Positions 32,831 through 58,788 of a DNA stretch of 64,000 bases are shown here, in pieces (the first letter of the stretch is position 1; each line of letters begins with the position of its first letter). Below the pieces are notes generated by a model. The model saw only the letters and a program-made list of their open reading frames with translations. It did no database searches and was not told where the DNA came from. Source of the DNA: Salminus brasiliensis (taxonomy: Eukaryota > Chordata > Actinopteri > Characiformes > Bryconidae); assembly GCF_030463535.1 (NCBI RefSeq), contig NC_132892.1, positions 35,319,049 to 35,383,048 on the forward strand. The letters run 5' to 3'. Made by a program: the position numbers and the translations under genes.

Positions 32831-32940
32831 AGAATTAGAACTTTCTAAATGCTTTAAGTTTCATTCATAACTGAAGATCTATGAATAATTACGCTAATAA
32901 TACATGACACATTTTGTTACCACCCTGTTATGCACATTAC

Positions 32941-33295
32941 TGTAACATAGGGGTTGAGACAGGCTGCATGTGCAGACGGACTTTATTAGGGCTACAGCAA
33001 TACTCGCTCTCAGGACAGGCAGAGGTCAGGAAGCAAGCAAGCATGTACAACACAGGTGAACCTATAATCCAGGTTGCAAAAGAAAGCAGAAGGTCAAACC
33101 CAGAAGAAACAACAATTCACCACAAGCACGTCCAAGACTGGTCGAGTCACATTGACCTCACCAAGAACCGTCCAACCTGAGGAGCTTAGGAGGAGTCCTA
33201 ATCAGTCCTATCATGAACAGCACCTGTGTGCTGGAGATGAAGCACATGACCTGCGCATGAGTTCCCCCTTGAGGCCAGCAGTGGAAGACATTACA
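32941..33295. mobile_element. Solo LTR-like element with 5-bp target duplication
   Basis: A 355-bp unit starting TGTAACATAG and ending GACATTACA, so TG...CA ends with short inverted repeats (TGTAA/TTACA). It is flanked by ATTAC at 32936-32940 and 33296-33300. A related copy is at 53565-53910. These are hallmarks of a solo LTR, although a full element is not present to confirm it. Confidence 0.7.
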
Positions 33296-35024
33296 ATTAC
33301 AGTTATAAGTGTGTGATTGGTAGCTCTTAGACTCATGTGGGTTCTAGATAGTGCCATAGATTTATTACCAAATAGTGTTCTGTGTTCTAAAGTTATGTTC
33401 TACTCATCACTAATTAGAGACCGTTAGAGACTACATGCAGATACAAAGGTAAGAACATACCAGGAGAAAAAGCTCCTTAGAAGAAAACAACTAATAGGAA
33501 CCAACACTAAAAAGGAGAACCTCCCTAGGATGATGTAGAAGAACCACTGAGAGGAACCGAGTCTCCCAAAAAGAAGCCATCCTCCTCTTGTTGAGATCAG
33601 ATGGTAAAACACATAACTAAATCTTTAGGTAAAGGTATTCAGGTGAACCAATTAATGCAGCGATTGGAGTTATCATGCAGTGATCAATCGTTCTTTAACT
33701 AGAATAAAGGAGAAGAAGAGGTGAAGAGCATGAAGAGGTGCTCCAGCACTAGGGTTGGGGGCAAAGTTCTCCGTTCAGTGTCAGCACAGCTCTTTTGTAA
33801 ACAGTTCCTGGCAGCTGCTGACAGAAGAGCCAGGGCTAATAGGTCAGCCTCAACATGGGCAGAATACAACCCCAATGACAAGACATTTAGCTTACAATCC
33901 CACCACTGATCTGTCATAAGCTTGTAACTCTCATAACTTTTTCCTAGTAGGAATTCTCATTTTAGATTCTCATCAGCTATAAAATGTTTACTGGTAACGT
34001 GATCAGATCTACAGATCTATAAAGACTCTGACTAGTTACATCACCAGAACATATGGTAAAGCCATTTCAGAGTTGAACCCTGGTTTTCCTTCATATCAGG
34101 ATTTCACTGAACAGATGTAAGATGTAAGAAGTTGTAATTGATGAGTTCATTGAGAAAATTTACGATGATGTTCATTTATTGAGGTGCTGGACGTCACTGG
34201 CGTCTGCGGGCCGGTGCGTTGGAGTCGGGTATGTGGCGCTTTCCTCCAGCCGTAATGACTGCACATCCAAATACCACAGGTTGGGTAATCGGTGGTCCGA
34301 ATTAGGGAGAAATTAGGTGGATCAAATTTTAAATAAATAAACCAGAAAAGGGTGAAAAAACAATACTTATGTCCTACATCCAAGGAATACAATGATTTAC
34401 ATGGATTTGCATGATTTACATAATTGCAGTGTTTTGACAGTGTATAGATACTGGTTCTTTTTGTTGAAACCAGTAACTGTCTTCAAGTATGGTTTGGCTA
34501 CAACAGCAAATACAACAAGGAGTTTTTGAATATTTACATTTATGAATATGGAGTTTCGCTAGCAATAAAATATACTAATTATAAATTCCTGATCTGCCTT
34601 GATGGGGGAGATCTTTCCAGAACCAAACAACAAATGTTGAGAACAAAGAGAAAAGTTACTGTTAATGTTCTGTATAATAAAAGAATATAAGAAAGGCAAA
34701 GAGGACAATTCCAAAATAAGCCATGTCACTCCTCTGCTGTGTTCTCTCTTTGAACTATTAGTTGATTCTAACTAGCTAAGGTTCTTCTTGGGTAAATAGC
34801 AAAGCACTTTTGTAAGTCGCTCTGGAGAAGAGCGTCTGCTAAATGCCATAAATGTAAGTAATTTAATAATTCTCAGGACACACACATGCTGCACTGCACT
34901 CTGCAACAGTTACGTAAGAGACCAGGGCAAGAGGGCACTGCAGGAGTGTTTGTTCAGTGGCATACAAAAGCCCCAGGTGATGAGGACAGTGGTGTAGATT
35001 TGAGGGTTCCTCCTGGCTGCAACC
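33296..35024. other. Gene-free interval upstream of the VWA gene
   Basis: Contains a piece of the AGGAGAACCTCC-type repeat (33470-33600) and a LINE 3' end (TTTGTAAGTCGCTCTGGAG at about 34811-34857). The promoter of the VWA gene should lie in its last part, but no clear TATA box is seen near the ATG. Confidence 0.5.
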
Positions 35025-38000
35025 ATGGGCCGGGTTCAGCTGCTCCTGCTCGGTTCTCTGTGGTTCTTCATCTGTTTCATTACACCAGCACATAGCGGTA
35101 AGACTGCCGTAAAACTGCCGCATTCATAGACACTTACATACGAGGAGAGGTGCAAGTTAAACTTCATGCAGAGAATAGGCACGGCATTCACTCTCACATG
35201 CACACTATTAGTATCATATCTTCTCAGAAACATCTCAGAAAACTGGGATTGGACTGCAGCGCTGCAGATTGGACATGAGATTACTTTATATAATTTATCA
35301 ATAGAGTAATTTTGACCAGAGGAGGTCGGGTCCCCCTTGTGGGTCTTGGTTCTTCCCAAGGTTTCTTCCTCCAGCTTTGAGGAGGCTTTTACTGCACTGC
35401 ACCGTAAAGAGCCTGTGTTACTACAAGCTTCTATTGCCAGAGATCAGCCCCACCAGACTACAAGTCCCTGTTGTTACTGTGTAATAAGCCTTGGAGTGTT
35501 AATGGGTTAATGTTTTAATAAATTTGACTTTGACCGGTCTTCAAATGTTGTAAATCATTCTTTGATTATGTTCTTTTATCTCCACTGCTCTGTGCTGCAG
35601 TTACTGAAGAGATGCTGAAGCAATGCAATGACAAGCTGGTGGAGAAGACAAAATCTTTGGCTGACATTGGTGAGCTAAAAAGCCAGGCTACTCAGATATG
35701 TCATTTGAAATGGAAATATTAACAGAGTGTAAATATTGTTAATGAGTTCATCAAATACTTCTGTGTCTGGCGCTCAAAACACAAGAATGTTGAATGCGGC
35801 CTCCAAGGCAATATGATCTGAGTCTATACACCTCCCAATAACTTGTACTTACACTACACTACACTATGACAAAATATTTCTTCTAATGATTGCATTCAGC
35901 TACTTTAAGCTGCACAGATGTGCAAATGCACATACACAGCTTGTCTAGTCCCTGTAGAGAAGAAGTACTGCCAATAGAATAGGACTGTGCAGCAGATCAA
36001 CATCATGACCCTATTGGCTCCATGCTGCCTAATAATGCCAGGCGTGGGCTAGAGGGGTATAAAGCCCCCCAGCATTGAGGAGCTGTGGAGCAGTGGAGGA
36101 GCTGTGTTCTCTGGAATGATGGTGGTGGAGCTCCATCCAGTACTTTTGGATAAGTTGGGGAGTTGGGGATGATGAGGTGGGGTGGTCGTGATCATCATCC
36201 AACATCCTGACCTCACTAACGCTCTTGTTACTGAATGCAATCAAATCCTCACAGCAATGCTCCTCCTTCAGAATCTAGTAGAAAGTCTTCTTCCCTGGAC
36301 AGTAGAGACAGTCACTCCAGCAAAAGCAGGATCAGCTCTTTTAATACACTTGATTTCAGAAGAAACAATGAATGAGCAGGTGTCCCAATACTTTTGTACA
36401 TACAGTGTATGTGTAATTGTTTGAACTGCTGTTTAGAAACAATTTAAAGTACTTAAATTGTTTTATGTAAATGTAATCTAATTTAATCTCTGGTTTTGCT
36501 CCTCTATAGAGACAGAACAGTCCCATCTGAAATGTGAGCTGAAACGGGTCAAAAGCACATTCAACTACATGCTTCAGGCTGTCAATATGCAGAAGCCTGG
36601 AAAAAGTATGCACCATTTATCACATCATTCCAACCTGAAATCATTCTCTGACCTAAACAGTGGCTTGTAAAAGCTTTATACACAGGAGCATGAGCACACT
36701 AAGGAGTGGCTCACATATTATTAATAAAGACTGCCGCGGAATATAGATCATCTTTACTTGTAAAATGAATGAGCATTTAATGACATTACAGTATTGTCCG
36801 ATATTTGCTCTGTACTTTCTAATACTCAAGGAATTTGTAGGCCACACGATTTTTAAAACTATAGTCTTTGCTCTTCACTGTCAAACTCTTCTTGCAGAGA
36901 AAAAAACAGCCCAATGTTAGTTAAACATACACACTGCCACTACACACGTGGACAAAATTGTTGGTACCCCTCGGTTAATGAAAGAAAAACCCACAATGGT
37001 CACAGAAACAACTTGAATCTGACAAAAGTAATAATAAATAAAAAGTCTATGAAAATTAACAAATAAAAATCCGACATTGATTTTAAACTATGCTTTAACA
37101 GAATTATTTTAAAAAGTAAACTCATGAAACAGGCCTGGACAAAAATGGGACATGTTAAATCAAGGTGTATCCACTAATTAGCATCATAGGTGTCTACAAT
37201 CTTGTAATCAGTCAGTGGGTCTATATATAGGGCTACAGGTAGTCACTGTGCTGTTTGGTGACATGGTGTTTACCACACTCAACATGGACCAGAGGAAGTG
37301 AAGGAAAGAGTTTCAGGAGAGTCTCAGGAGATTAGAAAGAAAATTATAGACAAGCATGTTAAAGATAAAGGTTATAAGACCATCTCCAAGCAGCTTGATG
37401 TTCCTGTGACTACAGTTGCACATATTATTCCGAAATTTAAGATCCATGGGACTGTAGACAACCTCCCTGGACGCGGCCGCAAGAGGAAAACTGATGACAA
37501 ATCAAAGAGACAGAAAATACGAATGGTAACAAAAGAGCCCAGAAAAACTTAAAGGTGAACTTCAAGCTCAAGGAACATCAGTGTCAGATCGTACCACCAT
37601 CGTTGTTTGAGCCAAAGTGGACTTCATGGGAGGCGACCAAGGAGGACACCATTGTTGAAACCAAATCATAAAAAAGACAGACTGAAATTTGCCAAACTAC
37701 ATGTTGACAAGCCCCATTGAATTGAATTTTTTGCCAAGGCACATCAGCTCTATGTTCACAGATGGAAAAATCAAGTATATCAAGAAAAGAACACTGTCCC
37801 TACTGTGAAACATGGAGGAGGCTCTGTTATGTGCTGAGGCTGCTTTGCTGCATCTGGCACAGGGTGTCTTGAATCTGTGCAGGGTACAATGAAATCTCAA
37901 GACTATCAAGGGATTCTAGACAGAAATGTGCTGCCCAGTTTGGTCTCAGTTGCAGGTCATGGAAATTGCAACAGGATAATGACCCAAAACACAGCTAAAA

Positions 38001-41000
38001 ACACCCAAGAATGGCTAAGAGGAAAACATTGGACTATTTTGGAGTGGCCTTCTATGAGCCCTAACCTAAATCCTATTGAGCATCTTTGGAAGGAGCTGAA
38101 ACATGCCATCTGGAAAAGGCACCCTGTGTCGGATTTTCATTTGGTCATTTTCCTAGAATGTTTATTTATTATTAATTTTGTCAGATTCAAGTTATTTCTG
38201 TGACCATTGTGTTTTTTTCTTTCATTAACCGAGGGGTACCAACAATTTTGTTCACGTGTGTAGGACCCGAGGATGGCTGGTTTGTATCCGGGGTCATGCC
38301 GTCAGCAGCCAGAGCCTGAGATAGCACAACTGGCCATTCTCTCTCTACCCATCTCTGGGTGGGTAGATGGTTCTCTGTCTCCCCACCTTACTTCAGTGTG
38401 ATGCTGGCCGGCACGGGTATCTGCTAGCCGATGTATCAGAGCTGGGTAGCCGCTGCTTTCCTTCAAGCGTGTTGGTTGCCTCGTGATGTTGCATGGATGG
38501 CAGTTCGATAAGAGGCGGTGGCTGGTTGCGCATTTGTTGGAGGAGGCAGGTGTCAGTCCTCAGCCTCCCAGTATTAGAAGGACAGTAATAATGAGTGGGT
38601 TGGGGAATTGGCCATCTAAAATTGGTGAGGAAACTTTGGACAATATCTGCTTTGAGTTTGTCTCATCTACAATAACTGCAAACGGGCCAAAGGTAATTGT
38701 TTACCAGAGTTGAACTATGGTCTCAAAGCTTCCTTTTTAACATCACTGCACCACAGCCATCCCATGGCACAAATACAGTAGCAGTTCCCAATCCCAGTCC
38801 TGGGGATTCTGTACACTCTTCGCTTTAAATGGAGATAACTATTTTTAAACTCACCGGAACCCACTCATGAAGGGTTTGGTAATAAGCTGATAGGTTGACT
38901 CAGCTCTGAAATTCACAGATCATTGGTTTCTCAGGAAACCAACTGTTCTAACTGTGTCTGGTTTATATGTACAGTTCTGCAGGAACTGCTGGATAATCGT
39001 CTGCACCAGCTTGGAAATGACCAAACAGGTCCTGTGAGAAACGGTATGGGAAATGTGCATGTTCACTGATCACAAATAATCTATCTGAGGATTTGATCTT
39101 TTCTTTGATTTATGATGTCTGGCTGATGCTCTCATCCAGAGTGACATATGGCTGTGGTTGTACGTTTACAGGCATTCATAATGGACATGAAGGTCATTGT
39201 AAGATTTTATTAAGATCTCTTCTTCACTTCACTTTTTTTTTTTGGGGCATAATGAATGAGAACATGCATTAGACATAAACAAAAAATTGGCCACACATTT
39301 TAATTTTGGAGATTTCAAGTCAAAATGACATCCATATATTACACTTAATATTTAGTTAAATGTCCCTTTAGAAGTTGTACCTTCATCAGACACTTTTGGT
39401 TGCCATCAACAAGCTTCTGGCAGATGTCTGGTTGAATATTTGATTCAGTTACATTTCTTGGTCAGATCAGACTTTTAAGCACAATCCATAAATTTGAGCT
39501 CAGGCCATTGCAATGGGTTAATATTCTTGGTCACTGTCCTGTTGGGACTCCTACCTGTGTCCAAGGTTTACCCAACTGGCTGTTGGCCTGGGGTTCTGAT
39601 GAAGAACTCTAAAGTAGTCTTCCTTCTTCATTATTGGAGTTATGAAAGAACTTCATTTTTAGAGGAGGTACATACCTTGAACCTCTTCTTACCAATCTAG
39701 CATTATAAAAAATACCTTGTTCTGGTGTCAAGGACAAGTCTGCACAACCCTCCACCACCCCGTCACCTCACCTTCAACCTGTCATCTATAATTCCTGGCT
39801 CCACATATCAGAATCAGAAATACTTTATTTATCCCAGGAGGGAAATTGCAGAGATTGGACTGGCTTCCTACCACATGGCAGGACTGGACTGGCTTTCTTC
39901 CCGTTCATGGCAGGCCTGTGCTTCCCGTCCATGGCACCCAAGTGCTATGGTTCTTGGGTTTTTCCTCACCATCTGAACCAGTTTTATTACTGAGGGTGAA
40001 AGTTTGGGTCTTCCAGGCAAAATGTCTACAGCTCCTAATAACCTGTCTTAAATCAATACTGATAGAACCGATGATCTTAGATTCTGTAGTTGTTATCCCC
40101 AAATGACGTTCCTTACTCATGTAAATCTACAATCATCCTTCTCAGATCTGCTCTGAGCCTCTTTGACTTTCCCATTGGACTGTGGGTTGGTCAGTCCATT
40201 GAGTGCTGTCAATCAAAACCATTTCGATCAGCTGTAGCCCATCATGATCACTAACAGGAAGTTAAGTGGTCTTGCCCTTGGAGGGTTAAAATACATTTTG
40301 GAACTTTCAGCACCACTGAATTAATACCCTAAGCGGGTGTATAGATATTTTTATCCTGTGTTGATTTCAGAAATTTAGAAACTCTGCCCGAAACATGTTA
40401 ATAGTTACAAGACGTAACTTCTAAAGGGACATTTAACCAACTATTGGGTCTGCTGTATGGATATTTTTGCCCCTGGATGCATAATATTGACTTAGAACAT
40501 TTCAGAAAATGCCAAACATGAATACTGTGACCAAATTCTTGCTTGTTTTTTAGATGTATGTTGTACTCTAATCCTGCACCCAGAAAAAAATCCCAATATT
40601 GTAATGGCATTCATGTCCATGTTGAGTGTATGTAAATCTATAGAAATCTTTTTTACATTGACTTGACTTTTACATTGAAAGTGAAGACGTTTTCACCTGT
40701 AAATGTGCTATTTTGGAGAAACAAGGAGTTTGTCAGTAAATCATCTCACATCATCTGGAATAATGTGTCGATTCTCTGCAGAGTCTACAAAACCTTTGAT
40801 AAATCTGGTCTTCTTGTTCGATGGTTCTGGCAGCATGAAGACTTCTGAGTTTGAGATGAACAAAATGTTCATTTGGGAAGTAATCAGGAAATATAAAAAC
40901 ACACCCATACAGGTAAACAACTTCTATAAATTAAACTGTAAGTACCTAAATTATATGGTAAGTAACTAAATTACTCTACAGGTAACTAAATTACACTGTA

Positions 41001-44000
41001 GGTAACTAAATTAAACTGTAGGTAACTAAATTAAACTGTAAGTACCTAAATTAAACTGTAAGTACCTTAATTATACGGTAAGTAACTAAATTACATTACA
41101 GGTAACTAAATTACACTGTAGGTAACTAAATTAAACTGTAAGTACCTAAATTATATGGTAAGTAACTAAATTACACTGTAGGTAACTAAATTAAACTGTA
41201 GGTAGCTAAATTAAACTGTAAGTACCTTAATTATATGGTAAGTAACTAAATTACATTACAGGTAACTAAATTACACTGTAGGTAACTAAATTAAACTGTA
41301 AGTACCTAAATTATATGGTAAGTAACTAAATTACATTACAGGTAACTAAATTACACTGTAAATACCTAAATTATATGGTAAGTAACTAAATTACATTACA
41401 GGTAACTAAATTACATTACAGGTAACTAAATTACACTGTAGGTAACTAAATTACACTGTAAATACCTAAATTGTATGGTAAGTAACTAAATTACATTACA
41501 GGTAACTAAATTACGGTGTAGGTAACTAAATTAAACTGTAAGTACCTTAATTATATGGTAAGTAACTAAATTAAATTACAGGTAACTAAATTACACTGTA
41601 AATACCTAAATTATACTACAGGTAACTAAGGTACATACCTGTAGATCTTCTCCTCATCTCTTCTCTGGGTTTAGTTTGCTGCGGTCCAGTTTTCGGATAG
41701 ACCCAGGACTGTTTTCACCTTCAAAGATTATAAGGACAACACAGCCGAGAAGAAACTTGATGAAGAGGCTCATATGAAGAGTCTCACATACACACATCTG
41801 GCTATTGATCATGTTCTGTGAGTAACCCCAGTTTCTTTTAACCCCTTAGTTTTGATAATAAGTCCTATTATCCAGTATCTGCTATCAAATATTATAAGAC
41901 TAAACCAAGGACATTAAAAGGATATGTTTGGGTTTGGGACCTCGTGGACTTAGAATGAATGAATAAAGAACTTGTTGAGTTGTGAGAACTTATTTACCAC
42001 CCTGTTATTTCACCTCAAAATGAAACTCACTGATTTCCCTTTCACAGAGGGCTTATGATAAAAAGAGATAAGCTTTAAATTACTGGTTGGTTTACAGTAC
42101 TGTGATGACCCATACCAGCATAGCATAGTGCAGCCTAGCTGAGTCTAGTATAGCCTAGCATAACAACTCACAGAATACTCTAGCATAGTTACAGCCTAAT
42201 GTGCTGTTTACAAGCTGAAGAGACCTACAGGTACGAAATATCTTTCCCTTCTGATGTGAGTTAAGCTCCAGATTGGTCCAGCTAAGGGGGTCCGGGACAA
42301 TGAAGAGAAGAGAGGGCAACAGCTAGCTTAGGCTAGTGGTAGCTTTTAGCCTAGTGTGGATCACTGTTTGCCCCTCCTGGGATCCCCTTCTAAGGTTTTA
42401 CTGGTTCACCAGCTCTAACCAGAGCTTTCTCCAGTGGTCAGGGCTTATGTCATTTTGAGGGGAATACATTTAAGTCAGAACTGTGATGTAACTGTTTTGG
42501 GGTTTTGAAATGGGCCTGTTTTACAGTTCTGTTTTGGTTCTGCTTGATGTTTTTTTAAAGACTATTACAAGAAAGATACAGTTTAACATTCCAGGGAACC
42601 TTAAGAACCTTAAGAACACAGTGTTTCTATATGTTCCTGAAGGTTATAGATGTACAGTGGATGTGGATCATTTCTAATGTGACCAGCAATGGAAAAGGGA
42701 TACTGTAGAAACACTACGTACTAGATAAAGTATCAGTCCAGAGGCTAATGAGCTGTAAATGTAATGAGACAGCTGTCCACCTGGGGGAGCCAGAGGGAAG
42801 ACCTGGATAGCAGTCTCGGATTATTAATCCTACATTTACATTTACAGCATTTAGCTGACGCTCTTATCCAGAGCGACTTACAAGGTTACTGGTATTACAG
42901 AGGCCAATGCAGTGTTAGGAGTCTTGCCCAAGGACTCTTTTGGTGTAAGCGCAGCATAGCCACCCAGTTCTGGAAGGTACTGGTGTTCTCTGTTGCGCCA
43001 CACCAACCACAACATACTTGGTGGAGCATACCACCAGGATGGATTCAAAAGCAGATATGGGGTTTTGCAGGGACCTAGGCTGCTGGTGTGAAAGGACAGA
43101 GAGAAATTGACTGGACTAGGGAGGAGTCCATATCTACTGGACTTAGAGAGTCGCTAGCTGCTTCAAAAGGAGTGCCTTAGACAACTCTGGGAGAATACCG
43201 ATACCAGCGTGGTCTAGCTTTTACATGGAAAAACTCAAGACTCTGCGCAGACAAAGTGGAAGGAAGTCCTTACCATAAAGGATTGCCACCAGCTGCTGTC
43301 ATTTGGGCTGATCACTAGGTGGCATAGAGCACAGGCGGCACCTTACAGTAAATGCCTTTTCTTTTCCAGGGTAAATCTCTTTGATAATGTGAGCTCTGGG
43401 GCAGATCCTGAGGCTACCAACATACTGATCATCCTCACAGATGGAGTCGCTTCTGATTTTGATAGTAAAAATGTCATTAAGCGGTGTGATGACCAGCATA
43501 TCGTACGAATCGTCATTGGGGTGAGTTAAAGCAAGCACTAGCCAACCACACAATACAATCAAACTCCACCTGTTCATCCATCTGTCCTCCACTTCAAAGC
43601 TGTAAGCATAGATTTGTATTGACAGGTAGGGGCCGTTGACATGCAGAGGACTGCTAGATTTGCCTCAGAGCCCAAAGAAGAGAACACTATTGAGATTAAA
43701 AATGAAAGTGAACCGGGAGGAATTTTTGCTAAAATTCAAAACAAGTTCAGCAACATTGGAGGTAAGCAGAAATAGACCTTGGGAATGTTACGTTTCTATA
43801 TAAACTCACAGAGCACTTTATTAGGAGGTTGGACATTGGATGTTGGACGATGTTGTCATGATTGTATCACAATTCCAGAAGATCTTTCAGTAGAACTTTT
43901 GTCCCAAATTCTTCAGATCTGTCATGTTTATGAAACTAGTGTGAGAGACTTCTCCTTTGTGAGATGCTGAGATGCCGTTAGAAACTATGGTCAAGGGACG

Positions 44001-47000
44001 AACATGGTCAGCAACAATTCTCACACAGTCTGTGGTGTTTTTGGTTGACCAATTATTGATTACCAGCCTAAAGTAGGTCAAGAACACCTTCTTCACACGA
44101 TTACACCACCTTTACACCACCTCCACCAGCCTGGACAGTTTACACAAGGCAGGTTGGCTTCATGGATTGATGCTGTTGGTGCCCTACTATCTGTGATCCT
44201 CAGCAGAAATCCAGATTCATCAGACCAGGCTACGTTCCTCCAGTCTTCAGTGTTGGTGAGCCTGGGCTGAGCCACTGCAGCCTCAGCTTCTGCTGTTGTA
44301 GCTCCCCCTCCTCAAGATTTGAGATGTTGTTCATTCTGAGCTGCTTCTCTGCTCTCCACAGTTGTACAGAGTGGTTATCTGAGCTACTGTGGCCTTCCTG
44401 TCAGCTCTAACCAGTCTGACCATTCTTTGTTGACCCTTTCTCATCAATAAGGTGTTTTCTTCTGCAGAACCACCGCTAACTGGGTGTGTTTTCTTCATTC
44501 CACCATTTAGAACCAAACATGGTTGTATGCATTGCACAACCTGAGCAGTTCCTAATAAAGTGCTTGGTGGGTGTATGTCTTCCAGTGGTCATGTTCATGC
44601 CTTGTCTTAGTTACTGTAGTTATGCTCTTACTTATAGTGCATAATTTAAACTGCTGTTTTGGGAAAATAGGTATTTGGTACACTGCTGAGTTTGAATGTT
44701 TTCCCACCCACAAAGAATGGAGAGGTCTGGAATTTGTATCATAGGTACACTTCAACTGTGAGAGACAGGTATGCCTGGAAAAACTAGGAAACACTTGAAG
44801 GAAATGGACGATGCAAGGCTTTAATGAACCATGGCAGGGTAACACAAGATGGGGTATACAAACAAGAGGGGATAAATCAAGGCACAGCGAGTGTAGTTGA
44901 TACCAAAAATCTCTATTTTGGTCTCATCTAACCACATGACCTTCACCCATGCCTCCTCTGGATCATCCAGATGGTCATTGGCAAACGGCAAACGGGCCGG
45001 GACATGTGCTGGCGTGACCAGGGGGACCTTGCATGCCCTGCAGGATTTTAATCCATGATGGCATAGTGTGTAACTAATGGTAATCTGAGACTGTGGTCCC
45101 AGCTCTCTTCAGGCCATTGACCAGGTCCTCCTGTGTAGTTCTAGGCTGATTCCTTTAACCTTTCTCAGAATCATCCTTACCCCACGAAGTGAGATCTGGC
45201 ATGGAGCCCAATACCGAAGGAGATTGACAATCATCTTGTGTTTGTTCCATTTTCTAATAATTGCGCCAACAGTTGTTGCTTTCTCACTTAGCTGCTTGTC
45301 TATTGTCCAGAAGCCCATCCCAGCCTTGTGCAGGTCCCTGGTGTCCTTAGACAGTTCTTTGGTTTCATTTCAAACAGGTACAATTAATCCAGATAATGAG
45401 TGCAGAATAGGAGGGCTTCTTAAAGAAAAAACGAAGAGCCAGAATTCTTGCTGGTTGGTAGTTTATCAAATACGTATTTCATGCAATAAAATGCAAATGA
45501 ATTACAAACCGGATTCCAAAAAAGTTGAGACACTAAACAAATTGTGAATAAAAACTGAATGCAATGATGTGGAGATGGCAAATGTCAGTATTTTATTTGT
45601 AATAGAACATAGATGACAGATCAAAAGTTTAATCTGAGTAAATGTAACATTTTAAAGGAGAAATATGTTGATTCAAAATTTCATGGCGTCAACAAATCCC
45701 CAAAAAGTTGGGACAAGTAGCAATAAGTTGCTGGAAAAAGGAAATTGAGCATATAACGAACAGCTGGAAGACCAATTAACACTAATTAGGTCAATTGACA
45801 ACATAATTGGGTATAAAAAGAGCTTCTCAGAGTGTCAGTTTCTCTCTGAAGCCAAGATAGTAAGAGGATCACCAATTCATTTACATTTACATTTACGGCA
45901 TTTAGCAGACGCTCTTATCCAGAGCGACTTACAAAGTGCTTTGCTATTTACCCAAGAAAAGCCTCAGCTAGTTAGAATAGGCTAATAATTCAAAAGATAC
46001 CTTTAAGCTTAGACATTGCTAAACACAATACAATAAGGCGACCATAGAACTATTCGTCCAAGTACTCTCTGAAGAGGTGGGTCTTCAGTCTGCGTTTGAA
46101 GACCGCGAGCGACTTGGCCGTTCGGACACCCAGGGGCAGCTCGTTCCACCACTTTGGTGCCAGGACAGAAAAAAGCCTGGACGCTTGTCTTCCGCGGATT
46201 TTGAGGGATGGCGGGTCGAGCCAAGCCGTACTTGAAGCTCGAAGGGCTCTTGGTGCGGATCTGCTTTTGACCATTGCCATCAGATACGGAGGGGCTGGTC
46301 CGTTCTGGGCTTTGTAGGCCAGCGTCAGGGTTTTAAATCTGATGCGGGCAGCTACAGGAAGCCAGTGGAGAGAGCGCAGCAGTGGAGTGACATGGCTAAA
46401 TTTTGGGACATTGAAGACGACCCGTGCCGCTGCATTCTGGATGAGTTGCAGGGGCCTGATGTTGCGCAACTCATCCAGAATTGTTGCCACCATTGTTGCG
46501 CAGAAAGATAGTGCAGCAATACCAGAATGGTGTTACCCAGCTTAAAATAGCAAAGACTAAGTTATCATCATCAGCCGTGCTTAACATCATCAAAAGATTC
46601 AGAGAATCTGAAACAATCGCTGTGCGTAAGGGTCAAGGCCGTAAAACTCTACTGGATGCTCGTGATCTCCGGGCCCTTAAACGTCACTGCACCTCAAACA
46701 GGAATGCCACTGTCAAGGAAATAACAGAATGGGCTCAGGAATACTTCCAGAAATCATTGCCAGTGAACACAATCCACTGTGCCATCCGCCGTTGCCAGCT
46801 GAAACTCTACAATGCAAAGAGGAAGCCATTTCTAAGCAAGCTCCACAAGCTCAGACGTTTGCACTGGGCCAGGGGTCTTTTAAAATGGAGTGTGGCAAAA
46901 TGGAAGACTGTTCTGTGGTCAGATGAGTCACGATTTGAAGTTCTTTATGGAACACTGGGATGCCATGTCATCCGGACCAGAGAGGACAAGGATAACCCAA

Positions 47001-49993
47001 GTTGTTATCAACGCAAAGCCTGCATCACTGATGGTATGGGGTTGCATGAGTGCTTGTGGCATGGGCAGCTTGCATGTCTGGAGAGGCACCATTAATGCAG
47101 AGAACTATGTTCAGGTTCTAGAACAACATATGCTCCCATCTAGACGTCATCTCTTTCAGGGAAGACCCTGCATTTTTCAACAAGATAATGCCAGACCACA
47201 TTCTGCAGCAATCACAACATCATGGCTACGTAGGAGAAGGATCCGGGTACTGAAATGGCCAGCCTGCAGTCCAGATCTTTACCTATAGAGAACATTTGGA
47301 GCATCATAAAGAGGAAGGTGCGACAAAGAAGGCCCAAGACGATTGAACAGTTAGAGGCCTGTATTAGACATAAATGGGAGAGCATTCCTATTTCTAAACT
47401 TGAGAAACTGGTCTCCTCTGTCCCCAGACGTCTGTTGAGTGTTGTAAGAAGAAGGGGGGATGCCACACAGTGGTAAAAATGGCCTTGTCCCAACTTTTTT
47501 GGGATTTGTTGATGCCATAAAATTTTGAATCAACATATTTCTCCTTTAAAATGTTACATTTACTCAGATTAAACTTTTGATCTGTCATCTATGTTCTATT
47601 ACGAATAAAATATTGACATTTGCCATCTCCACATCATTGCATTCAGTTTTTATTCACAATTTGTTTAGTGTCCCAACTTTTTTGCAATCCGGTTTGTAAT
47701 TTAAAAATCAAACATTGTGATTTTCTGGATTTTTTAGAGTGTGTCTCTTACAGTTGAAGTGTACGTACACTTGAAAAATCAGCAGTGTATCAAATACTTT
47801 TTTCCCAGCTACTTTAAGTTGCACCAATTACTGACAAAGATGTGCAAATGCACACAGAGCTTGTGTAGAGAAGGACTGCCAATAGAATAGGACTCTTTGG
47901 AGCAGATCAACTTAAATCTATTGGCACCATGCTGCCTAATGATGAGTGTATGATTGTATGTAAATCTGTTATTGGGACCTAACATGTAAACCATGTTACA
48001 CAGGTAAGAGTATGCAGAGTTTGGAGTCTTACACAAGAACTCCCATTAGTGTACAGCTATGTCTAGTGTACAGATTGTCTAGATTGCATAAATCCAAACA
48101 AACGGATCTGCTTAACCAATGCAATGTGATCAAAATCTTGTTTGCAAAAGTGTAAAGATCGCTGTTACAGTCCCACAGTATTAGAATTTAATGATGAATA
48201 GACCAATAGAAATCTTTTTTTACATTGACTTCCTTTGAAAGTGAAGACGTTTTCACCTGTAAAGGTGCTATTTTGGAGAAACAAGGAGTTTGTCAGTAAA
48301 TCATCTCACATCTTCTGGAATAATGTGTCGATTCTCTGCAGAGTCTACAAAACCTTTAATAAATCTGGTCTTCTTGTTCGATGGTTCTGCCAGCATGAAG
48401 ACTTCTGAGTTTGAGATGAACAAAATGTTCATTTGGGAAGTAATCAGAAAATATAAAAACCCATCCATAGAGGTAAACAACTTCTATAAACATTTTACCC
48501 TTAAGTACTTTATTTAGGCTCCACTATGGGTAACTCAATTACACTACAGGTAACTAAATTACACTACAGGTAACTACATTACACTGTAAGTACCTAAATT
48601 ACACTGCAGGTAACTTAATTACACTGTAAGTACCTAAATTACACTACAAGTAACTCAATTACACTGCAGGAAACTAAATTACACTGTAAGTACCTAAATT
48701 ACACTACAGGTAACTAAATTACAATGTAAGTGCCTACATTACACTGCAGGCAACTACATTACACTACAGGTAACTTAATTACACTGCAGGTAACTAAATT
48801 ACAGTGTAAGTAACTAAATTACACTGCAGGCAACTAAATTACACTGCAGGAAACTACATTACACTGCAGGCAACTACATTACACTACAGGTAACTTAATT
48901 ACACTGCAGGTAACTAAATTACACTGTAAGTACCTAAATTACACTACAGGTAACTAAATTACACTGCAGGTAACTAAATTACACTGCAGGTAACTAAATT
49001 ACACTGTAAGTACCTAAATTACACTACAGGTAACTAAATTACACTGTAAGTACCTAAATTAAACTGAAAGGTAACTACATTACACTGCAGGTAACTTAAT
49101 TACACTGTAAGTACCTAAATTACACTACAGGTAACTAAATTACGCTGTAAGTACCTAAATTACACTGCAGGTAACTAAATTACGCTGTAAGTGCCTAAAT
49201 TACACTACAGGTAACTAAATTACAATGTAAGTACCTAAATTACACTGCAGGTAACTAAATTACACTGTAAGTACCTAAATTACACTGCAGGCAACTACAT
49301 TATACTACAGGTAACTTAATTACACTGCAGGTAACTAAATTACAGTGTAAGTGCCTAAATTACACTGCAGGCAACTAAATTACAGTGTAAGTGCCTAAAT
49401 TACACTGCAGGCAACTACATTACACTACTGGTAACTTAAATACACTGCAGGTAACTAAATTACACTGTAAATACCTAAATTACACTGTAAGTAACTAAAT
49501 TACACTTCAGGTAACTAAATTACACTGTAGGAAACTAAATTACACTGCAGGTCACTAAATTACACTGTAAGTACCTAAATTACACTTCAGGTAACTAAAT
49601 TACACTGTAAGTACCTAAATTACACTACAGGAACCTAAATTACACTGCAGGTAACTAAATTACACTGTAAGTACCTAAATTACACTACAGAAACCTAAAT
49701 TACACTGCAGGTAACTAAATTACACTGCAGGTAACTACATTCAAATTGTTAAAAAAACAGCCGTCACTCACCCATCTGTCTCTGAATTTGAAAATGGAAC
49801 ATTTTATACCTTTTTGGCAACAGCATAGCAACCACCTTGCAACAGCATAGCAACTGCCTACCACACACTCAACAACTCCACAGCAACCACTTAGCAACAC
49901 CATAAAAAAACACTTGTGATAGCAACCATCTAGCAACGTCAGTTTCACTCTAGTGACCACCTAGCAGGAGCCTAACACCTGCCTGGGAGTAGA

Positions 49994-50057
<64 letters not shown>

Positions 50058-53000
50058 TGTATAGGCAGTCATGTAGCTCTCCAGAAACTGCCAGCCAGTA
50101 ATTGTTTTTATTTGTTTTGTTTACAATGTTTTTGGTCACTCTTTATTTGGAGTGGTCCTTTTTAGATGAAATTAACATTGATCAGAGTCTCAGTACCAGA
50201 TCCACAACCTCTCACTGATGTAGCAGCAGTGAAGCATCTGAACACGTCCAGTAGATCAAGAGACTTTTATTGAACTGTAGGAATAAAATCTGTTTATAAT
50301 CTGCAGAATTCAGCTGTTTTCACATTATTTAGAGTGTCCAAGTTCATTCCTGTAGATCTTCTCCTCATCTCTTCTCTGGGTTTAGTTTGCTGCGGTCCAG
50401 TTTTCGGATAGACCCAGGACTGTTTTCACCTTCAAAGATTATAAGGACAACACAGCCGAGAAGAAACTTGATGAAGAGGCTCATATGAAGAGTCTCACAT
50501 ACACACATCTGGCTATTGATCATGTTCTGTGAGTAACCCCAGTTTCTTTTAACCCCTTAGTTTTAAGTCCTATTATCCAGTATCTGCTATTAATAATTCC
50601 ATAAACTCAGAGAACTCATTTCTAATTGATGTTGGAGAAATTTAAGTATGGGTATACAAACAGGTCTTTAGAGTTTAAAGGGTTAAAGTGGCTTAAAATT
50701 AAACTGTTAATGACAGCAGAAGTGTTTAAACTGTGTTAGAGGTTGCTTATTTCCCCTTAAGACTAAACCAAGGACAGTAAAAGGATATGCTTTGGTTTGG
50801 GACCTTGTGAACTTTTAGCCATAGAATGCATTAATAAAGAACTAAAGTTAACCCTATTTACCATCACGATGGCCCACAACAGCATAGCATAGTGCAGCCT
50901 AGCCGAGTCTAGTATAGCCTAGCCTGTCCTGTCGCTGTGTCTTCTCAGCATAATGTGCTGTTTCTACAGAAGTTGGAAGTCTTGGTGAAGTCATGGATGA
51001 TCAGTTATGGTTCTCAGATCATGTTGCAAATGTGACTCGGTCCTGCAGATTTCTCCTGTACAACATCTGGAGAATTCCACCCTTCCTCTCTAGAGAGTCT
51101 CAGGCACAGGTGCTCGTCCAGTCTCTCCTCACTTCCAGACTTGACCACTTTAGCTCTCTTCTGGCTGGTCTCCTTCAGACCCCTGCAGCTGATCCAGAAC
51201 ACAGCGGGTTGGGTCGTCTTCAACGTTCCTAAATCCAGCCATGTTCTGCTCCTGCTCTTCTGGGTTCTCTCTTCACTGGCTTCCTGTAGCTGCTGCCCAG
51301 GTCATCAGATTCAGAACCCTGACTCTGGCCAAAAAGCCAAGACTGGACCAACCAGCCCCTCCATACTTGATGGCGATGGTCAATCAAATGCCTATCTGCA
51401 CCAGGAGTCCTTCCAGCTTCAAGTACGGCTCGGCTCGACCCGCCATCCTTTAAGATCCACAGAAGATGAGCGTCCAGACTTTTTACTGTCCTGCACCGAA
51501 GTGGTGGAACGAACTTTCCCTGGGTGTCGGAACAGCAGAGTCCAACGCTCGCTGTCCTCAAACCCTGACTGAACACCCTCCTCTTCTGAGAGGACTTGGG
51601 TGAAGAGTAGGGTATTATGGTCTCCATATTGACTTGTGTTTAGTGGAGTCTAAGATTAGAGGAGCTTTACATTTTTAGTCTGTTAAAACTAGCTGAGGTT
51701 CTTCTTCAGTAAATGGTAAAGCTCTTTTGTAAGTCGCTCTGGAGCGTCTGCTAAATGCCCTAAATGTTGACAAGCTGAAGAGACCTACAGGTACGAAAAA
51801 TCTTTCCCTTCTGATGTGAGTTAAGCTCCAGTTTGGTCCAGCTGAGAGAGTCCAGGACAATGAAGAGAAGAGAGGGCAACAGCTAGCTTGGGCTAGTGAT
51901 AGCTTTTAGCCTAGTGTGGATCCCTGGGATCCCCTTCTAAGGACACAGTAAAACACAGGGAAAGCTATGGTCACGAGGCCTGGTTCCCGAGTCTGGACGT
52001 GATGAGCTCTCTAGTATCAACAACACCATATTCGCCCGAATTCGCTGTCGTGTGTTACTGCTTCACCAGCTATGACCAGAGCTTTCTCCAGTGCACAGGG
52101 TTCATGTCATTTTTGAGGGTATAAATTTAAAGTATAAATTTCACAAATCAGAACTGTGATGTAACAGTTTTGGGGGTTTGGAATTGGCCTGTTAACAGTT
52201 CTGTTTTGGTTCTGCTGGATGTTCTTTTAAAGAAGCGTTTTTTTTCCTGGAAGTTTATAGACGTACAGCTTCCCTCTATAGTGACCAGCAATGGAAAAGA
52301 GATCCAGTAGAAACCCTACTTACTAAATAATGGATCAGTCTTATGAGCTGTAAATCCATGCTTGGGTCCAAAAACTTGTAAAAAGACACGCCTTTTCTTT
52401 TCCAGGGTAAATCTCTTTGATAATGTGAGCTCTGGGGCAGATCCTGAGGCTACCAACATACTGATCATCCTCACAGATGGAGTCGCTTCTGATTTTGATA
52501 GTAAAAATGTCATTAAGCGGTGTGATGACCAGCATATCATACGAATCGTCATTGGGGTGAGTTAAAGCAAGCACTAGCCAACCACACAATACAATCAAAC
52601 TCCACCTGTTCATCCATCTGTCCTCCACTTCAGTGCTGTAAGCATATATTTGTATTGACAGCTAGGGGCCGTCGACATGCAGAGGATTGCTAGATTTGCC
52701 TCAGAGCCCAAAGAAGAGAACACTATGTATTTAAATCCAAGTGAACCGGGGGAAATTTTTGCTAAACTTCAAAACAAGTTCAGCAACATTGGAGGTAAGC
52801 AGAAATAGACCTTGGGAACGTTACGTTTCTATATAAACTCACAGAGCACTTTATTAGGAGGTTGGACATTGGATGTTGGACGATGTTGTCATGATTGCAT
52901 CACAATTCCAGAAGATCTTTCAGTAGAACTTTTGTCTCAAATTCTTCAGATCTGTCATGTTTATGAAACCAGTGTGAGAGACTTCTCCTTTGTGAGATGC

Positions 53001-54039
53001 TGAGATGCCGTTAGAAACTATGGTCAAGGGACGAACATGGTCAGCAACAATTCTCACACAGTCTGTGGTGTTTTTGGTTGACCAATTATTGATTGGTTTC
53101 CAGCTCAAAGTATGTCAAGAAAACCTTCTTTACATCATTACACCACCTTTACACCACCTCCACCAGCCTGGACAGTTCACACAAGGCAGGTTGGCTCCAT
53201 GGATTGATGCTGTTGGTGCAGCCTCAGCTTCTGCTGTTGTAGAACCCATTGGCTCCATGCTGCCTAATAATGCCAGGCGTGGGCTAGAGGGGTATAAAGC
53301 CCCCCAGCATTGAGGAGCTGTGGAGCAGTGGAAGAACTGTGTTCTCTGAAATGATGATGGTGGTGGAGCTCCATCCAGTACTTTTGGATGGGATGAGTTG
53401 GGGAGTTCAGGATGAGGTGGGGTGGTGGTCGATCATCCATCCAACATCTTGACCTCTTTCGTGGCTAAATGTAATTAAATCCTCACACCTATTTTGCTCC
53501 AAAATCTAGTAGAAAGTCTTCTTCTCTGGACTTTTTTTAATCCCCTTGATTTCAGAAGAAACACTGTGACATAGTAGTTGTGGAAGGCTGCAAGTGCAAA
53601 GAGACTTTTTTTAGGGCGAAAGCAAAACTCATCATCAGGACAGGCAGAGGTCAAAAACAGGTAGGCAGGTACATCACAGGCAAACCCATAATCCAAGTCA
53701 TAAAACAAGCAGGAACATCACAAGTGCAAGATTAGTGTTGTCACAGTGACTCCACCAACACTCAAATCAGAGGTGCTTATCAGCAGTCCTCATCAGTCCC
53801 ATAATCAACATTACCTGTGTGCTTGGAGCTGAATTTCAGGTGAGGGGTGGAGCTTAGTCCTTGCACAAGACATGAGCTCCCCACTGAGGCCAGCAGAGGG
53901 AGACATTACACACTGAATGAGCAGGTGTCCCAATACTTTCGTCCATACAGTGTATTTGGTTTTCATAAAAGTTCTCCACTTCTTGTGTTTTTCCTCTCCA
54001 GTTTCTGCAGGTCACTGTAAGCCAGACGTGTCCGACTGA
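35025..54039 (+). CDS. Secreted protein with two tandem integrin-alpha-I-like VWA domains (13 exons)
   Basis: Exons: 35025-35097, 35601-35669, 36510-36605, 38975-39043, 40782-40912, 41675-41817, 43370-43520, 43626-43761, 48342-48472, 50386-50528, 52406-52556, 52662-52794 and 54002-54039. All have GT-AG borders and compatible phases, summing to 1464 nt (487 residues plus TGA). Residues 1-24 form a signal peptide ([18 protein letters not shown]...). Residues 25-102 are a charged, helical linker with two cysteines. VWA 1 (about 103-289) has MIDAS residues D116, S118, S120 (FLFDGSGS), Thr184/186 and D218 (ILIILTDG). VWA 2 (about 290-475) has D303, S305, S307 (FLFDGSAS) and D405. A 12-residue tail follows. 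The core (IVIGVG..., [12 protein letters not shown]) resembles the I domain of leukocyte integrin alpha chains (CD11 type). There is no propeller or transmembrane segment, so it is probably a soluble adhesion or decoy protein. Alternative: two adjacent genes sharing exons. No transcript evidence was available. Confidence 0.72.
35850..36412 (+). mobile_element. MITE-like element, copy g, in VWA gene intron 2
   Basis: Near-complete copy from ACACTATGACAAAATATTTC to GTGTCCCAATACTTTTGTAC and ATACAGTGTA, inside the intron between exons 2 and 3. Confidence 0.75.
36941..38262 (+). mobile_element. Complete but inactive Tc1-like transposon in VWA gene intron 3
   Basis: TA-flanked inverted ends: CACACGTGGACAAAATTGTTGG at the left and the complementary CCAACAATTTTGTTCACGTG at the right, 1.3 kb apart. 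Between them is a transposase on the + strand in pieces: helix-turn-helix part [20 protein letters not shown] (from 37331) with linker [10 protein letters not shown], and a C-terminal part (37877-38203) with [19 protein letters not shown] carrying the final E. Frameshifts and stops separate the parts, so no full enzyme is made. Confidence 0.88.
38265..38630 (+). mobile_element. SINE-like repeat
   Basis: CAGCAGCCAGAGCCTGAGA, GGGTGGGTAGATGG, GAGGCGGTGGCTGG, GAGGAGGCAG and AATGAGTGGGTTGGGGAATTGG in order match a widespread fish SINE type. It directly abuts the Tc1 element. Confidence 0.6.
39044..40635. other. VWA gene intron 4, no further exon seen
   Basis: Only repeat fragments recognised, e.g. 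ATCAGAAATACTTTATTTATCC at about 39815 (a retroelement 3' end in reverse) and TTAATAGTTACAAGACG near 40400. Confidence 0.45.
40925..41635. repeat. 20-bp minisatellite of splice-donor-like motifs, VWA 1 intron 5
   Basis: About 35 copies of a 20-bp unit, GGTAACTAAATTACACTGTA and variants (AGTACCTAAATTATATGGTA). It begins 12 bases after the exon 5 donor (CAG|GTAAAC). Nearly every unit contains AGGTAACT, GGTAAGTAAC or TGTAAGTAC, all close to the 5' splice consensus. Confidence 0.95.
42830..43310. mobile_element. Retroelement insertion private to unit A intron
   Basis: CATTTACATTTACAGCATTTAGCTGACGCTCTTATCCAGAG begins a stretch absent from the corresponding intron of unit B, which passes directly from GAGCTGTAAAT to the exon 7 acceptor region. 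Confidence 0.6.
43804..44574. mobile_element. Non-autonomous DNA element (CACTTTATTAGG ends)
   Basis: Inverted ends CACTTTATTAGGA and TCCTAATAAAGTG (the right end actually reads TTCCTAATAAAGTG). It lies in intron 8 just after exon 8. A truncated duplicate is at 52837-53230, so it was present before the exon duplication. Confidence 0.7.
45503..47698 (+). mobile_element. Tc1-like transposon with ~210-bp inverted repeats, nested
   Basis: TA-bounded ends TACAAACCGGATTCC and GCAATCCGGTTTGTA, with inverted repeats of about 210 bases (45503-45720 and 47487-47698). The transposase is readable on the + strand from 46500 to 47476: [26 protein letters not shown] (first D), [11 protein letters not shown] (second D), then [13 protein letters not shown] (E). 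It needs two frame changes and its N-terminus is interrupted by a LINE fragment, so it is inactive. Confidence 0.88.
45880..46490 (-). mobile_element. CR1-like LINE 3' fragment inside the Tc1 element
   Basis: On the - strand it encodes the C-terminal part of a LINE protein ([16 protein letters not shown], then [15 protein letters not shown], then [11 protein letters not shown], then [10 protein letters not shown]) in one open frame (46493-46050), ending in the terminal repeat GGCATTTAGCAGACGCTC / TTTACATTTACA. The open frame suggests a recent insertion. Confidence 0.85.
47807..47955 (+). mobile_element. MITE-like element, copy h (fragment)
   Basis: AGCTACTTTAAGTTGCACC to GGCACCATGCTGCCTAATGATG; both ends are missing. 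The outer transposon ends exactly where this fragment starts. Confidence 0.6.
48510..49745. repeat. 20-bp minisatellite, VWA 2 intron (expanded copy)
   Basis: Counterpart of 40925-41635 in the duplicated unit, with about 61 units, longer and more homogeneous (GCAGGTAACTAAATTACACT, TGTAAGTACCTAAATTACAC). The unit period is 20 bp and the phase is kept through almost the whole array. Confidence 0.95.
49997..50052. repeat. (TA)n microsatellite
   Basis: Uninterrupted TA tract of about 55 bases in the VWA 2 intron. Confidence 0.95.
50964..51768 (+). mobile_element. CR1-like LINE 3' fragment, private to unit B
   Basis: Same family as 45880-46490, sense orientation: broken frames with [27 protein letters not shown] and the terminal GTAAGTCGCTCTGGAGCGTCTG. 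In unit A the flanking text GTGCTGTTT/ACAAGCTGAAGAG is continuous, which fixes the insertion point and shows that it came after the exon duplication. Confidence 0.85.
53240..53955 (+). mobile_element. MITE-like element, copy i, interrupted by a solo LTR
   Basis: Family sequence from TTGGCTCCATGCTGCCTAAT to GATTTCAGAAGAAACAC, then the LTR-like element, then TGAATGAGCAGGTGTCCC to ATACAGTGTA. It lies in the last intron of the VWA gene, about 45 bases before the final exon. Confidence 0.75.
53565..53910. mobile_element. Solo LTR-like element, second copy
   Basis: TGTGACATAG to GACATTACA, related along its length to 32941-33295 (shared TCAGGACAGGCAGAGGTCA and GAGGCCAGCAG). The target duplication here is ambiguous (AACAC / CACTG). 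Confidence 0.65.
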
Positions 54040-54815
54040 CTGATGGCTATGAGGACAGCTGAAGCTATTAGATCTGAATCTCAGTGAACTCTACAATCTT
54101 AGAAAGAAAGGTGCTTCAAAGGGTTCTTTGAGTGATGTCATAGAAGAACCACATATTGGTTTGGTTTGGTTTGGTTTGGTAAAGAAGTGTGTTTCTAATA
54201 GAGATGTGTGAAAAAGTCTGAAAACAGACCTTAAAAAGGTTCTTTAGGGAACCAAAACTGGCTCTTCTACGGCATCACTCATGGAACCAGTAGGAGCACC
54301 TTTATTTTGGAGTGAATTGTCTAAAAATGACCCAGCAGAACATCACTTTGACATCAGGAAGATCAGACTCTGATGTTGAATTCTGGTTAGAAAGTCACAC
54401 ATCCATCAAAACCCAATACTGGGATGAGGTTGAGGTCCAACGTTACACAGACATTGCATACTGGGTACTGAACACCACGACCAACAACATATCAACATCT
54501 AAGAACGTTAGAAATTCACGCTGTGTGGACGTTAACATTGGGAAGTTCAGCAGATGTTGGGTTTTGGTCACCATACCTGAAATGTTATTATGTTAAATGT
54601 TGACGTTTGTTGGCATTAGGTGTTGTCCTGACATTGAATTTTGGTCACTACCTATATTCAACCTGATTTCAACGTCTGTAGATGTCAGGAGCTTTTTCAT
54701 TCATTAAAACGCTCTGAAGTTGAAGGTCATTGATGTTCTGCATGTGTTATAATGAGAGAACTCTATTAAATTCACCACTGTCTGGATTTCTGTTGTTATC
54801 TATCTTCATTCAGCC
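54040..54815. other. 3' flank of the VWA gene, no gene seen
   Basis: Contains (TTTGG)n at about 54160-54180 and a degenerate inverted pair AAAGGGTTCTTTGAGTGATG / GGCATCACTCATGGAACC (54117-54300) typical of short fish DNA elements. The true poly(A) site is unclear. Confidence 0.45.
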
Positions 54816-55250
54816 TACAGCAGTTTAGCCCCACCCATTAATCCTACAGCAGTTTAGCCCCACCCATTCAGCCTACAGCAGTTTAGCCCCACCCATTCAT
54901 CCTACAGCAGTTTAACCTTGCCCATTCAGCCTACAGCAGTTTAGCCCCGCCCATTCAGCCTACAGCAGTTTAGCCCCACCCATTCAGCCTACAGTAGTTT
55001 AACCTAGCCCATTCAGCAGTTTAGCCCCACCCATTCAGCCTACACCAGTTTAGCCCCACCCATTCAGCATACAGCAGTTTAGCCCCACCCATTCAGCCTA
55101 CAGTAGTTTAACCTAGCCCATACAGCAGTTTAGACCCGCCCATGCAGCCTACAGCTTTTAAGCTCCACCTATCATCTTTTCAGCCTACAGCAGTTTAGCC
55201 CCACCCATTCATCTTACATCAGATTAGCCCCACCCACTCAGCTAAATTTA
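54816..55250. repeat. 29-bp minisatellite upstream of rdh8
   Basis: About 14 copies of CCTACAGCAGTTTAGCCCCACCCATTCAG type units, some shortened or changed (AACCTAGCCC). The array ends roughly 220 bases before the rdh8 start codon. Confidence 0.9.
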
Positions 55251-55307
55251 GCCCCAGTCAGCTCTCTGAGCATGTGCAGGAGATAACTCGGCCAGGAGTG
55301 TGTCCAC

Positions 55308-55313
55308 TAATCC
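55308..55313 (+). promoter_or_regulatory. TAATCC, possible CRX/OTX site upstream of rdh8
   Basis: One TAATCC hexamer lies 155 bases before the rdh8 ATG. CRX/OTX factors bind this motif at photoreceptor genes, and RDH8 is photoreceptor-expressed, so the placement is sensible. A six-base match is weak on its own. Confidence 0.25.
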
Positions 55314-55335
55314 AAGCTCATACATGTGACCCCAG

Positions 55336-55402
55336 CCCTCTGTGTGTGTGTGTGTGTGTTTATCTGCTTTGAGAGTTACTTAAAACCTGCCATAGCCTGT
55401 CT

Positions 55403-55445
<43 letters not shown>

Positions 55446-55592
55446 AGAGAGTGTGTGAGGAGAAGCGATGGCGGCAGCGGGGCAGAAAGTGGTTCTGATC
55501 ACCGGCTGCTCGTCTGGAATCGGCCTGAAGATCGCCGTCCTGCTCGCCAAGGACCCGAACCAGAGATACCACGGTCAGGACGCTCGTCTGTA

Positions 55593-55660
<68 letters not shown>

Positions 55661-55661
55661 G
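55336..55661. repeat. Microsatellites around rdh8 exon 1
   Basis: TG at 55340-55358, AC at 55405-55442, then after exon 1 TG at 55595-55634 and AG to 55660. Exon 1 sits between them. Confidence 0.9.
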
Positions 55662-56567
55662 CCTCAGTTTAACCTCTTGAACTCTAGACTGATAACACTT
55701 AGCACATTTCAGTCACTTAAGTTCTAGATAATAACGGGCTAAGCGTAAGGCTTAGATGAAAACATTTGATACATGTTTCTTTTAAGAACCTTATAAAAGT
55801 GGTTCTAGATAAAAATTTGAAAAGAGTTCCAATATCCAAATAAAAACCCCACTTCATATAGGGTTCTAGGTCATTATTTTGGGTAACATGGTGGTTAGTT
55901 CCAATATTAGATCTAGAACATTTTAAAATGGATAAAAACTAGATAGCACCAAAAGAGGTTCCACTATTGGCCCAAGTCGCAAAACTCCCTTTGCTCAGAG
56001 AATACTAGACAGTCATGGTGACTAACATGATGGCAAGATCCATGACTGAATTATGCTGAAATGGTTCTAGATATTACCTGGTTAAATGTATGATACAAAG
56101 GGTCAAGGGTTCTTTAGCAAAGGCAGTGGTTCTATATAGAACTCGGCTCAGACAATCCTCAGAATGCCTACATTGATCTTCTCAAGAAGAAAAACATCTG
56201 CTACATGTTTACTTTACAAAGCTTTTAAAAATGGTTCTAGGTAACGCCAAAAAAGGGTTCCACCGTTCTTGCAAGTGAAAGTTGCTTAGACTGTACTAGG
56301 TAATTATGTTGGGTAAGTCTCTATAAAAAGGGGGTTCTTTAATGCTTCTGTAGAAAAGGCAGTAGTTCTATACAGAACTCAGATCAAAGAAACCTCTAAA
56401 TGCTTAAATTGGTTCTCACAGACAAGGAGAACATCTGGGACACGGTTCTTTTAAGAAGCTTTTTAAAATGGTTCTAAACACAGAAATGTGAATTTGCTGC
56501 CCAGCATGTCTACATTTCAGTGCAGACCACAGTTACACAACTGAATGGTGATGTAAAGTGTGTTTGT

Positions 56568-56609
<42 letters not shown>

Positions 56610-56744: not shown

Positions 56745-56784
<40 letters not shown>

Positions 56785-58728: not shown

Positions 58729-58788
<60 letters not shown>

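Follow-up and report, generated by a model that had tools for sequence, protein, structure and literature searches.

Matrilins are secreted oligomers that carry VWA domains, EGF modules, and a coiled coil, the last at the C-terminus. A VWA domain of the collagen VI type has been proposed as the source of the integrin I domain (PMC12422189). According to the same article, from 2025, the Glu of the conserved I/LEGT motif is the internal ligand required for integrin activation, and neither collagen nor any other vWFA protein has a conserved counterpart of it (PMC12422189). I domains are studied as parts taken up by integrins. The locus described here, from a window of 64,000 nucleotides of Salminus brasiliensis DNA, apparently presents the reverse.

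The reading preferred here, with a probability of about 0.5, is that of a functional gene whose product is secreted and probably oligomeric, and in which an alpha-L-type I cassette would have joined a new stem and later doubled in place. The parts are already known. The layout of signal peptide, coiled coil, and double I domain was not recognised in the open-access literature as covered by titles and the starts of abstracts, a collection with most subscription journals outside it. Fish orthologues may already be annotated, for instance as integrin alpha-L-like. Searches of prokaryote and viral collections gave 1 and 45 pattern matches, respectively, and no relative in either.

Gene structure and predicted protein

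The gene lies on the forward strand and consists of 13 exons between positions 35025 and 54041 of the window, with GT donors and AG acceptors throughout, which join to 487 residues and a stop codon. The exon coordinates of the first-pass annotation proved accurate to within the stop codon when the frame was re-joined, the end being 54041. The predicted protein runs from a signal peptide through a coiled-coil linker with two cysteines to two VWA domains and a 12-residue tail. Exon 1 (35025-35097) has the start codon and the predicted signal peptide, a hydrophobic stretch at about residues 1-24. The linker begins in exon 2 (35601-35669) with Cys33, continues in exon 3 (36510-36605) with Cys56, and ends in exon 4 (38975-39043). 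I domain 1 is divided among exon 5 (40782-40912) with the DGSGS metal-site loop, exon 6 (41675-41817) with the metal-site Thr, exon 7 (43370-43520) with the TDG metal-site loop, and exon 8 (43626-43761), which encodes the C-terminal part and has Gly in place of the internal-ligand Glu. Exons 9 (48342-48472), 10 (50386-50528), 11 (52406-52556), and 12 (52662-52794) are copies of exons 5, 6, 7, and 8, and exon 13 (54002-54041) encodes the 12-residue tail and the stop. For exons 1-4 and 13, the 64-kb window has a single copy each.

The first exon set measures 131, 143, 151, and 136 nt and the second 131, 143, 151, and 133 nt. Both begin and finish in phase 1 and every join is in frame, as had been proposed for symmetrical sets, and the frame is kept with set 1 alone, set 2 alone, or both sets. 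The two VWA domains are 93% identical, and the full protein matches the Pfam VWA family in two stretches (E = 1.7e-59).

Strongly hydrophobic 19-residue stretches are confined to the first 25 of the 487 residues; a scan of the whole protein found none outside the signal peptide that might serve as a membrane anchor. A heptad pattern is present at residues 27-68; when the first 51 residues of the linker were shuffled 5000 times, its score was reached twice. The 12 heptad core residues include Cys33, together with one Lys and one Gln. The secreted layout suggested at first reading, a signal peptide followed by a helical linker, is supported as a prediction by the hydrophobic N-terminus and the heptad score, and the protein may be secreted and oligomeric. 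With the signal peptide plus linker as query, Pfam gave no family at E values up to 1, and solved structures gave no match below E 0.3. The stem has no relative outside the window at E below 0.05, so that the N-terminal exons rest on a single locus.

Type of the I domains and their metal site

In a phmmer search of PDB sequences, the best single-domain scores were 91 bits for alpha-L, 79 for alpha-X, up to 75 for alpha-M, 50 for alpha-E, and 33 for alpha-2. A collagen VI chain heads the ranking solely through the summed scores of many weak domains, the best of which has 25 bits. Each window domain is 41% identical to ITGAL. Both group with ITGAL at 96/94 in a tree of 10 rows and at 97/95 in a tree of 12 rows to which two matrilin domains were added, a grouping that rests on these few reference rows. 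As judged from these comparisons, the window domains are of the leukocyte integrin alpha-L type. The earlier assignment to the leukocyte alpha-I type is thereby borne out and narrowed, and the profile comparison that had been proposed, together with the trees, places alpha-L nearest, ahead of the VWA domains of matrilin and collagen VI. A matrilin or collagen VI type was rejected on the phmmer bits and the trees.

The metal site is complete in both domains, with DGSGS or DGSAS for the DxSxS motif, the Thr of LTYT, and TDG, and the sequence check agrees with the first-pass annotation on all three elements. The residue after TDG is Val in the window domains and Glu in alpha-L. This Glu is an ICAM contact, and Val at its position speaks against a plain ICAM decoy. 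The five residues found before FASKP in ITGAL are absent from the window domains, and three integrin relatives in the same genome are also without them. The glycosylation motif NES (residue 270) is present in domain 1 and absent in domain 2.

Integrin genes in the same genome

The genome of the fish (1.07 Gb, 103 contigs) was searched for I-domain relatives, with 80 matches. The closest outside the window belong to three genes that share its contig (G000 C15) and lie at 36.55, 36.59, and 36.69 Mb. The window itself is at 35.32-35.38 Mb, and these integrin-type genes are 1.2-1.3 Mb from it. Their I domains are 53-63% identical to those of the window, with exons of 131/143/139/136, 125/143/151/136, and 131/143/139/136 nt. 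The four-exon, phase 1-1 layout of the I domain is thus common to the window and to 3/3 integrins in this comparison within one genome. All three genes have FG-GAP repeats and an integrin Ig_1 exon downstream of the I domain, and are for this reason taken as integrin alpha genes. At the gene in the middle, a scan of the first 10 kb gave VWA only and the FG-GAP repeats appeared in the next stretch, and its Ig_1 exon passes the cut-off only with its neighbours in frame. In the tree, the window domains and the three genome integrins group at 99/98 and are joined with ITGAL at 95/96. The genes at 36.55 and 36.69 Mb are inverted near-copies of each other, with 172 of 182 I-domain residues identical and an identity of 87.8 to 99.5% across the main BLAST pieces, which suggests that the integrin locus itself was recently duplicated.

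Integrin parts other than the I domain were sought in the window. On the + strand of the flanks, scanned with Pfam at 31001-40782 and 54042-63999, neither FG-GAP nor integrin Ig was matched. Moreover, FG-GAP and thigh exon probes from the genome integrins found nothing in the whole window below E 2.7, and none of the Ig_1 matches obtained lay in the window, the nearest on the contig being beyond it at 36.56 Mb. The introns within the gene were covered by the integrin probes, and the Pfam scan covered the flanks. When 668 ORF pieces from the three integrin loci were compared with the window, 155 hits were obtained at E 1e-4; among the best hits per bin, eight coincided with the eight exons of the I domains, and the remainder, elsewhere in the window, were taken as transposons. 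Flank scans, whole-window probes, and hydrophobicity therefore agree with the first-pass annotation that propeller, stalk, and anchor are absent. The outcome that it had named as contrary to its proposal, a full integrin with exons elsewhere in the locus, was looked for in the scanned flanks and by probing the whole window, and was not found; the integrin genes are separate and more than 1 Mb away.

An alignment of the five I domains reveals two further differences. The last full codon encodes Glu in 3/3 genome integrins and Gly in 2/2 window domains, and the first codon encodes Cys in 3/3 genome integrins and Ser in 2/2 window domains. Where the internal-ligand motif I/LEGT would be expected to provide its Glu, the window domains read NIGES and NIGVS. 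The absence of this Glu is what one would expect of a domain freed from control by a beta subunit, and since it is common to both copies the loss most simply predates the doubling.

Tandem duplication of the exon set

The outer ends of the self-BLAST matches place the first copy of the duplicated block at 40640-44301, its last piece being only 26 bases, and the second at 48206-53242, both on the + strand. As proposed at first reading, exons 9-12 copy exons 5-8, and pairwise counts give 6/131 different bases for exons 5 and 9, 0/143 for exons 6 and 10, 1/151 for exons 7 and 11, and 12/133 aligned bases for exons 8 and 12, the latter one codon shorter. For each exon, the acceptor (12 bases) and the donor (8 bases) are identical between the sets. 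The alignable introns differ at 33/945 bases (about 3.5%), excluding a poorly aligned stretch with 21/166, and large intron parts are unalignable between the copies by self-BLAST. Exons 6 and 7 together differ at 1/294 bases, fewer than the introns (Fisher p 0.0017). Divergence along the block is uneven, from 0.4% to 12.7% (p 4e-10, or 7e-6 when the poorly aligned stretch is excluded), and gene conversion or constraint may be the cause. Intron 8, of 4.6 kb, has a transposase ORF and five AATAAA/ATTAAA motifs. A 20-base minisatellite is present in intron 5 (40927-41629), with about 35 copies, and again in the copy of that intron (48529-49741), with about 61.

Age, constraint and direction

Between the window and the genome-integrin I domains, dS is 0.81-0.90 and dN 0.26-0.33, with a ratio of 0.29-0.41; the first two genome integrins are separated by a dS of 0.39. 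Rough three-point arithmetic on window copy 1 and these two integrins assigns the window branch a dS of about 0.64, a dN of 0.17, and a ratio of 0.26. The two window sets differ from each other by a dS of 0.040 and a dN of 0.036, and with dN so close to dS there is no sign of constraint since the doubling. Exon 8 is the fastest-changing (12/133 bases), mostly by amino-acid changes. These values point to an old split from the integrins, a branch constrained as a whole, and a recent doubling. Of 200 bootstrap trees, 10% unite the three genome integrins; the order in which window and integrin domains branched is thus without support, and we infer the direction from integrin to window. That the cassette left an integrin, and not the reverse, is suggested by its integrin-type sequence, which it has in common with human alpha-L, together with the missing integrin parts.

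Neighbourhood of the gene

On the + strand, the flanks of the gene in the window contain tectonin/propeller matches just under the cut-offs, a Tc1-type transposase, and adh_short. Four stretches on both sides of the gene resemble one another by BLAST, namely 13260-15632, 20992-22967, and 30017-32399 on the + strand and 62710-64000 on the - strand. The first of these, with its pieces joined by X, matches the Tectonin family at E = 1.2e-59. These stretches resemble fish-egg lectins, and the products of the neighbouring tectonin genes may also be secreted and serve in recognition, a point that is no more than suggestive. Downstream (54042-63999) are exons of a short-chain dehydrogenase (adh_short, 7.9e-20), and one ORF piece there, which alone matches no Pfam family, resembles HSD17B1. 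A 75-base tandem repeat is present at 4073-5953 (25 copies, 96% match), and since its unit length is divisible by three, each strand has an open frame of more than 500 residues. At the gathering threshold, Rfam finds two UnaL2 LINE ends in the window and nothing else.

On another contig (C8), a tandem array of VWA exons was observed at about 35.178-35.285 Mb, with at least 30 matches having a 240-residue open frame. Among the matches listed, the spacing is about 2,782 bases from 35186732 to 35267390, other VWA exon types are interspersed, and there are no internal stops. The array looks like one giant VWA gene, perhaps collagen VI-like, or an assembly repeat.

Alternative explanations

Two alternatives accept a working gene. 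The protein might have mainly a single I domain, the sets being used alternatively or the second skipped; joins through set 1, set 2, or both are all in frame, and the transposase ORF and five AATAAA/ATTAAA motifs in the long intron 8 (4.6 kb) favour this. In contrast, the second set retains acceptors and donors matching those of the first, four exons would have to be skipped together, and neither set has a stop or frameshift, which leaves about one chance in four for such a protein. Slightly less probable is a matrix adaptor of the matrilin kind, a coiled-coil oligomer whose VWA heads bind matrix and not leukocyte ligands. A stem with two VWA heads is like a matrilin in outline, and matrilin domains score 150 and 160 against 252 for ITGAL. 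However, the window domains cluster with alpha-L, have no Cys at both ends, and gave VWA-type Pfam matches with no EGF module. Their lack of the residues before FASKP, which might seem to favour a matrilin, is shared by the integrins of the same genome.

The remaining alternatives deny the gene, its doubling, or its independence. Decay, in which an integrin fragment would be open by chance and unused, draws on the near equality of dN and dS between the copies, the diverging exon 8, and the transposons in the introns. It is improbable given a dN/dS of 0.29-0.41 against the integrins at dS 0.81-0.90, the lack of stops, the GT-AG borders everywhere, and the metal site intact in both copies. A false duplication, with two haplotypes assembled end to end, would account for the 99-100% likeness of exons 6 and 7, and was rejected as very unlikely in view of the intron divergence outside the poorly aligned stretch, the unequal minisatellites, the unalignable intron parts, and the single occurrence of exons 1-4 and 13. 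An ordinary integrin alpha gene with its remaining exons elsewhere in the locus has the type of domain in its favour and is the least probable of all; it was rejected because the + strand of the scanned flanks gave no FG-GAP or integrin Ig and the window probes are negative, and in addition the nearest Ig_1 match is outside the window and tectonin and adh_short matches flank the gene on either side.

Proposed origin and role

Under the preferred reading of a working gene with a doubled cassette, the four-exon phase 1-1 cassette would have come from an integrin alpha-L-type gene, acquired a signal peptide and a coiled-coil stem, and subsequently been doubled in place via tandem duplication. The coiled coil, perhaps assisted by Cys33 within its core and the neighbouring Cys56, would link several chains. 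The two I domains of each chain would use the metal site to bind an acidic ligand. With the internal-ligand Glu gone, a beta subunit would no longer act on the last helix, binding would be unswitched from within, and its strength would come from the number of heads (avidity). Secretion, oligomers, ligand, and role are all inferred. The protein would most likely act on LFA-1-type ligands, as a soluble decoy or as a bridging factor, or else serve as a soluble recognition protein. More tentatively, and with less than even odds, a fish lineage may have made the I-domain cassette a free-standing multivalent soluble recognition protein, in which gain and loss of cassettes would vary the number of heads between species or individuals. 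If expressed, the protein would be a natural uncoupled, multivalent alpha-L-type I domain for probing the purpose of the internal ligand. It would also be a candidate for a soluble factor that regulates how fish leukocytes adhere, or that regulates recognition.

Comparison with known systems

The VWA arrays of collagen VI are likewise secreted strings of VWA domains. In contrast to them, the window domains match collagen VI weakly (best domain 25 bits), and the Pfam scan gave no collagen helix. Matrilins are alike in their coiled coil and VWA domains. However, the coiled coil of the window protein is N-terminal and the matrilin sequences cluster apart; matrilin-type VWA domains, EGF modules, and a C-terminal coiled coil were not found in it. 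The genome integrins at 36.55, 36.59, and 36.69 Mb share with the window the four exons and their phases at 53-63% identity, whereas they have FG-GAP and integrin Ig exons and keep the Cys and Glu. The I domain of integrin alpha-L (CD11a, LFA-1) resembles those of the window in its metal site, at 41% identity, and is the nearest in the trees of solved domains. Unlike alpha-L, the window gene gave no sign of a propeller, a stalk, a membrane anchor, or the Glu of the internal ligand, and its protein is predicted to be secreted, with two copies of the I domain on a coiled-coil stem.
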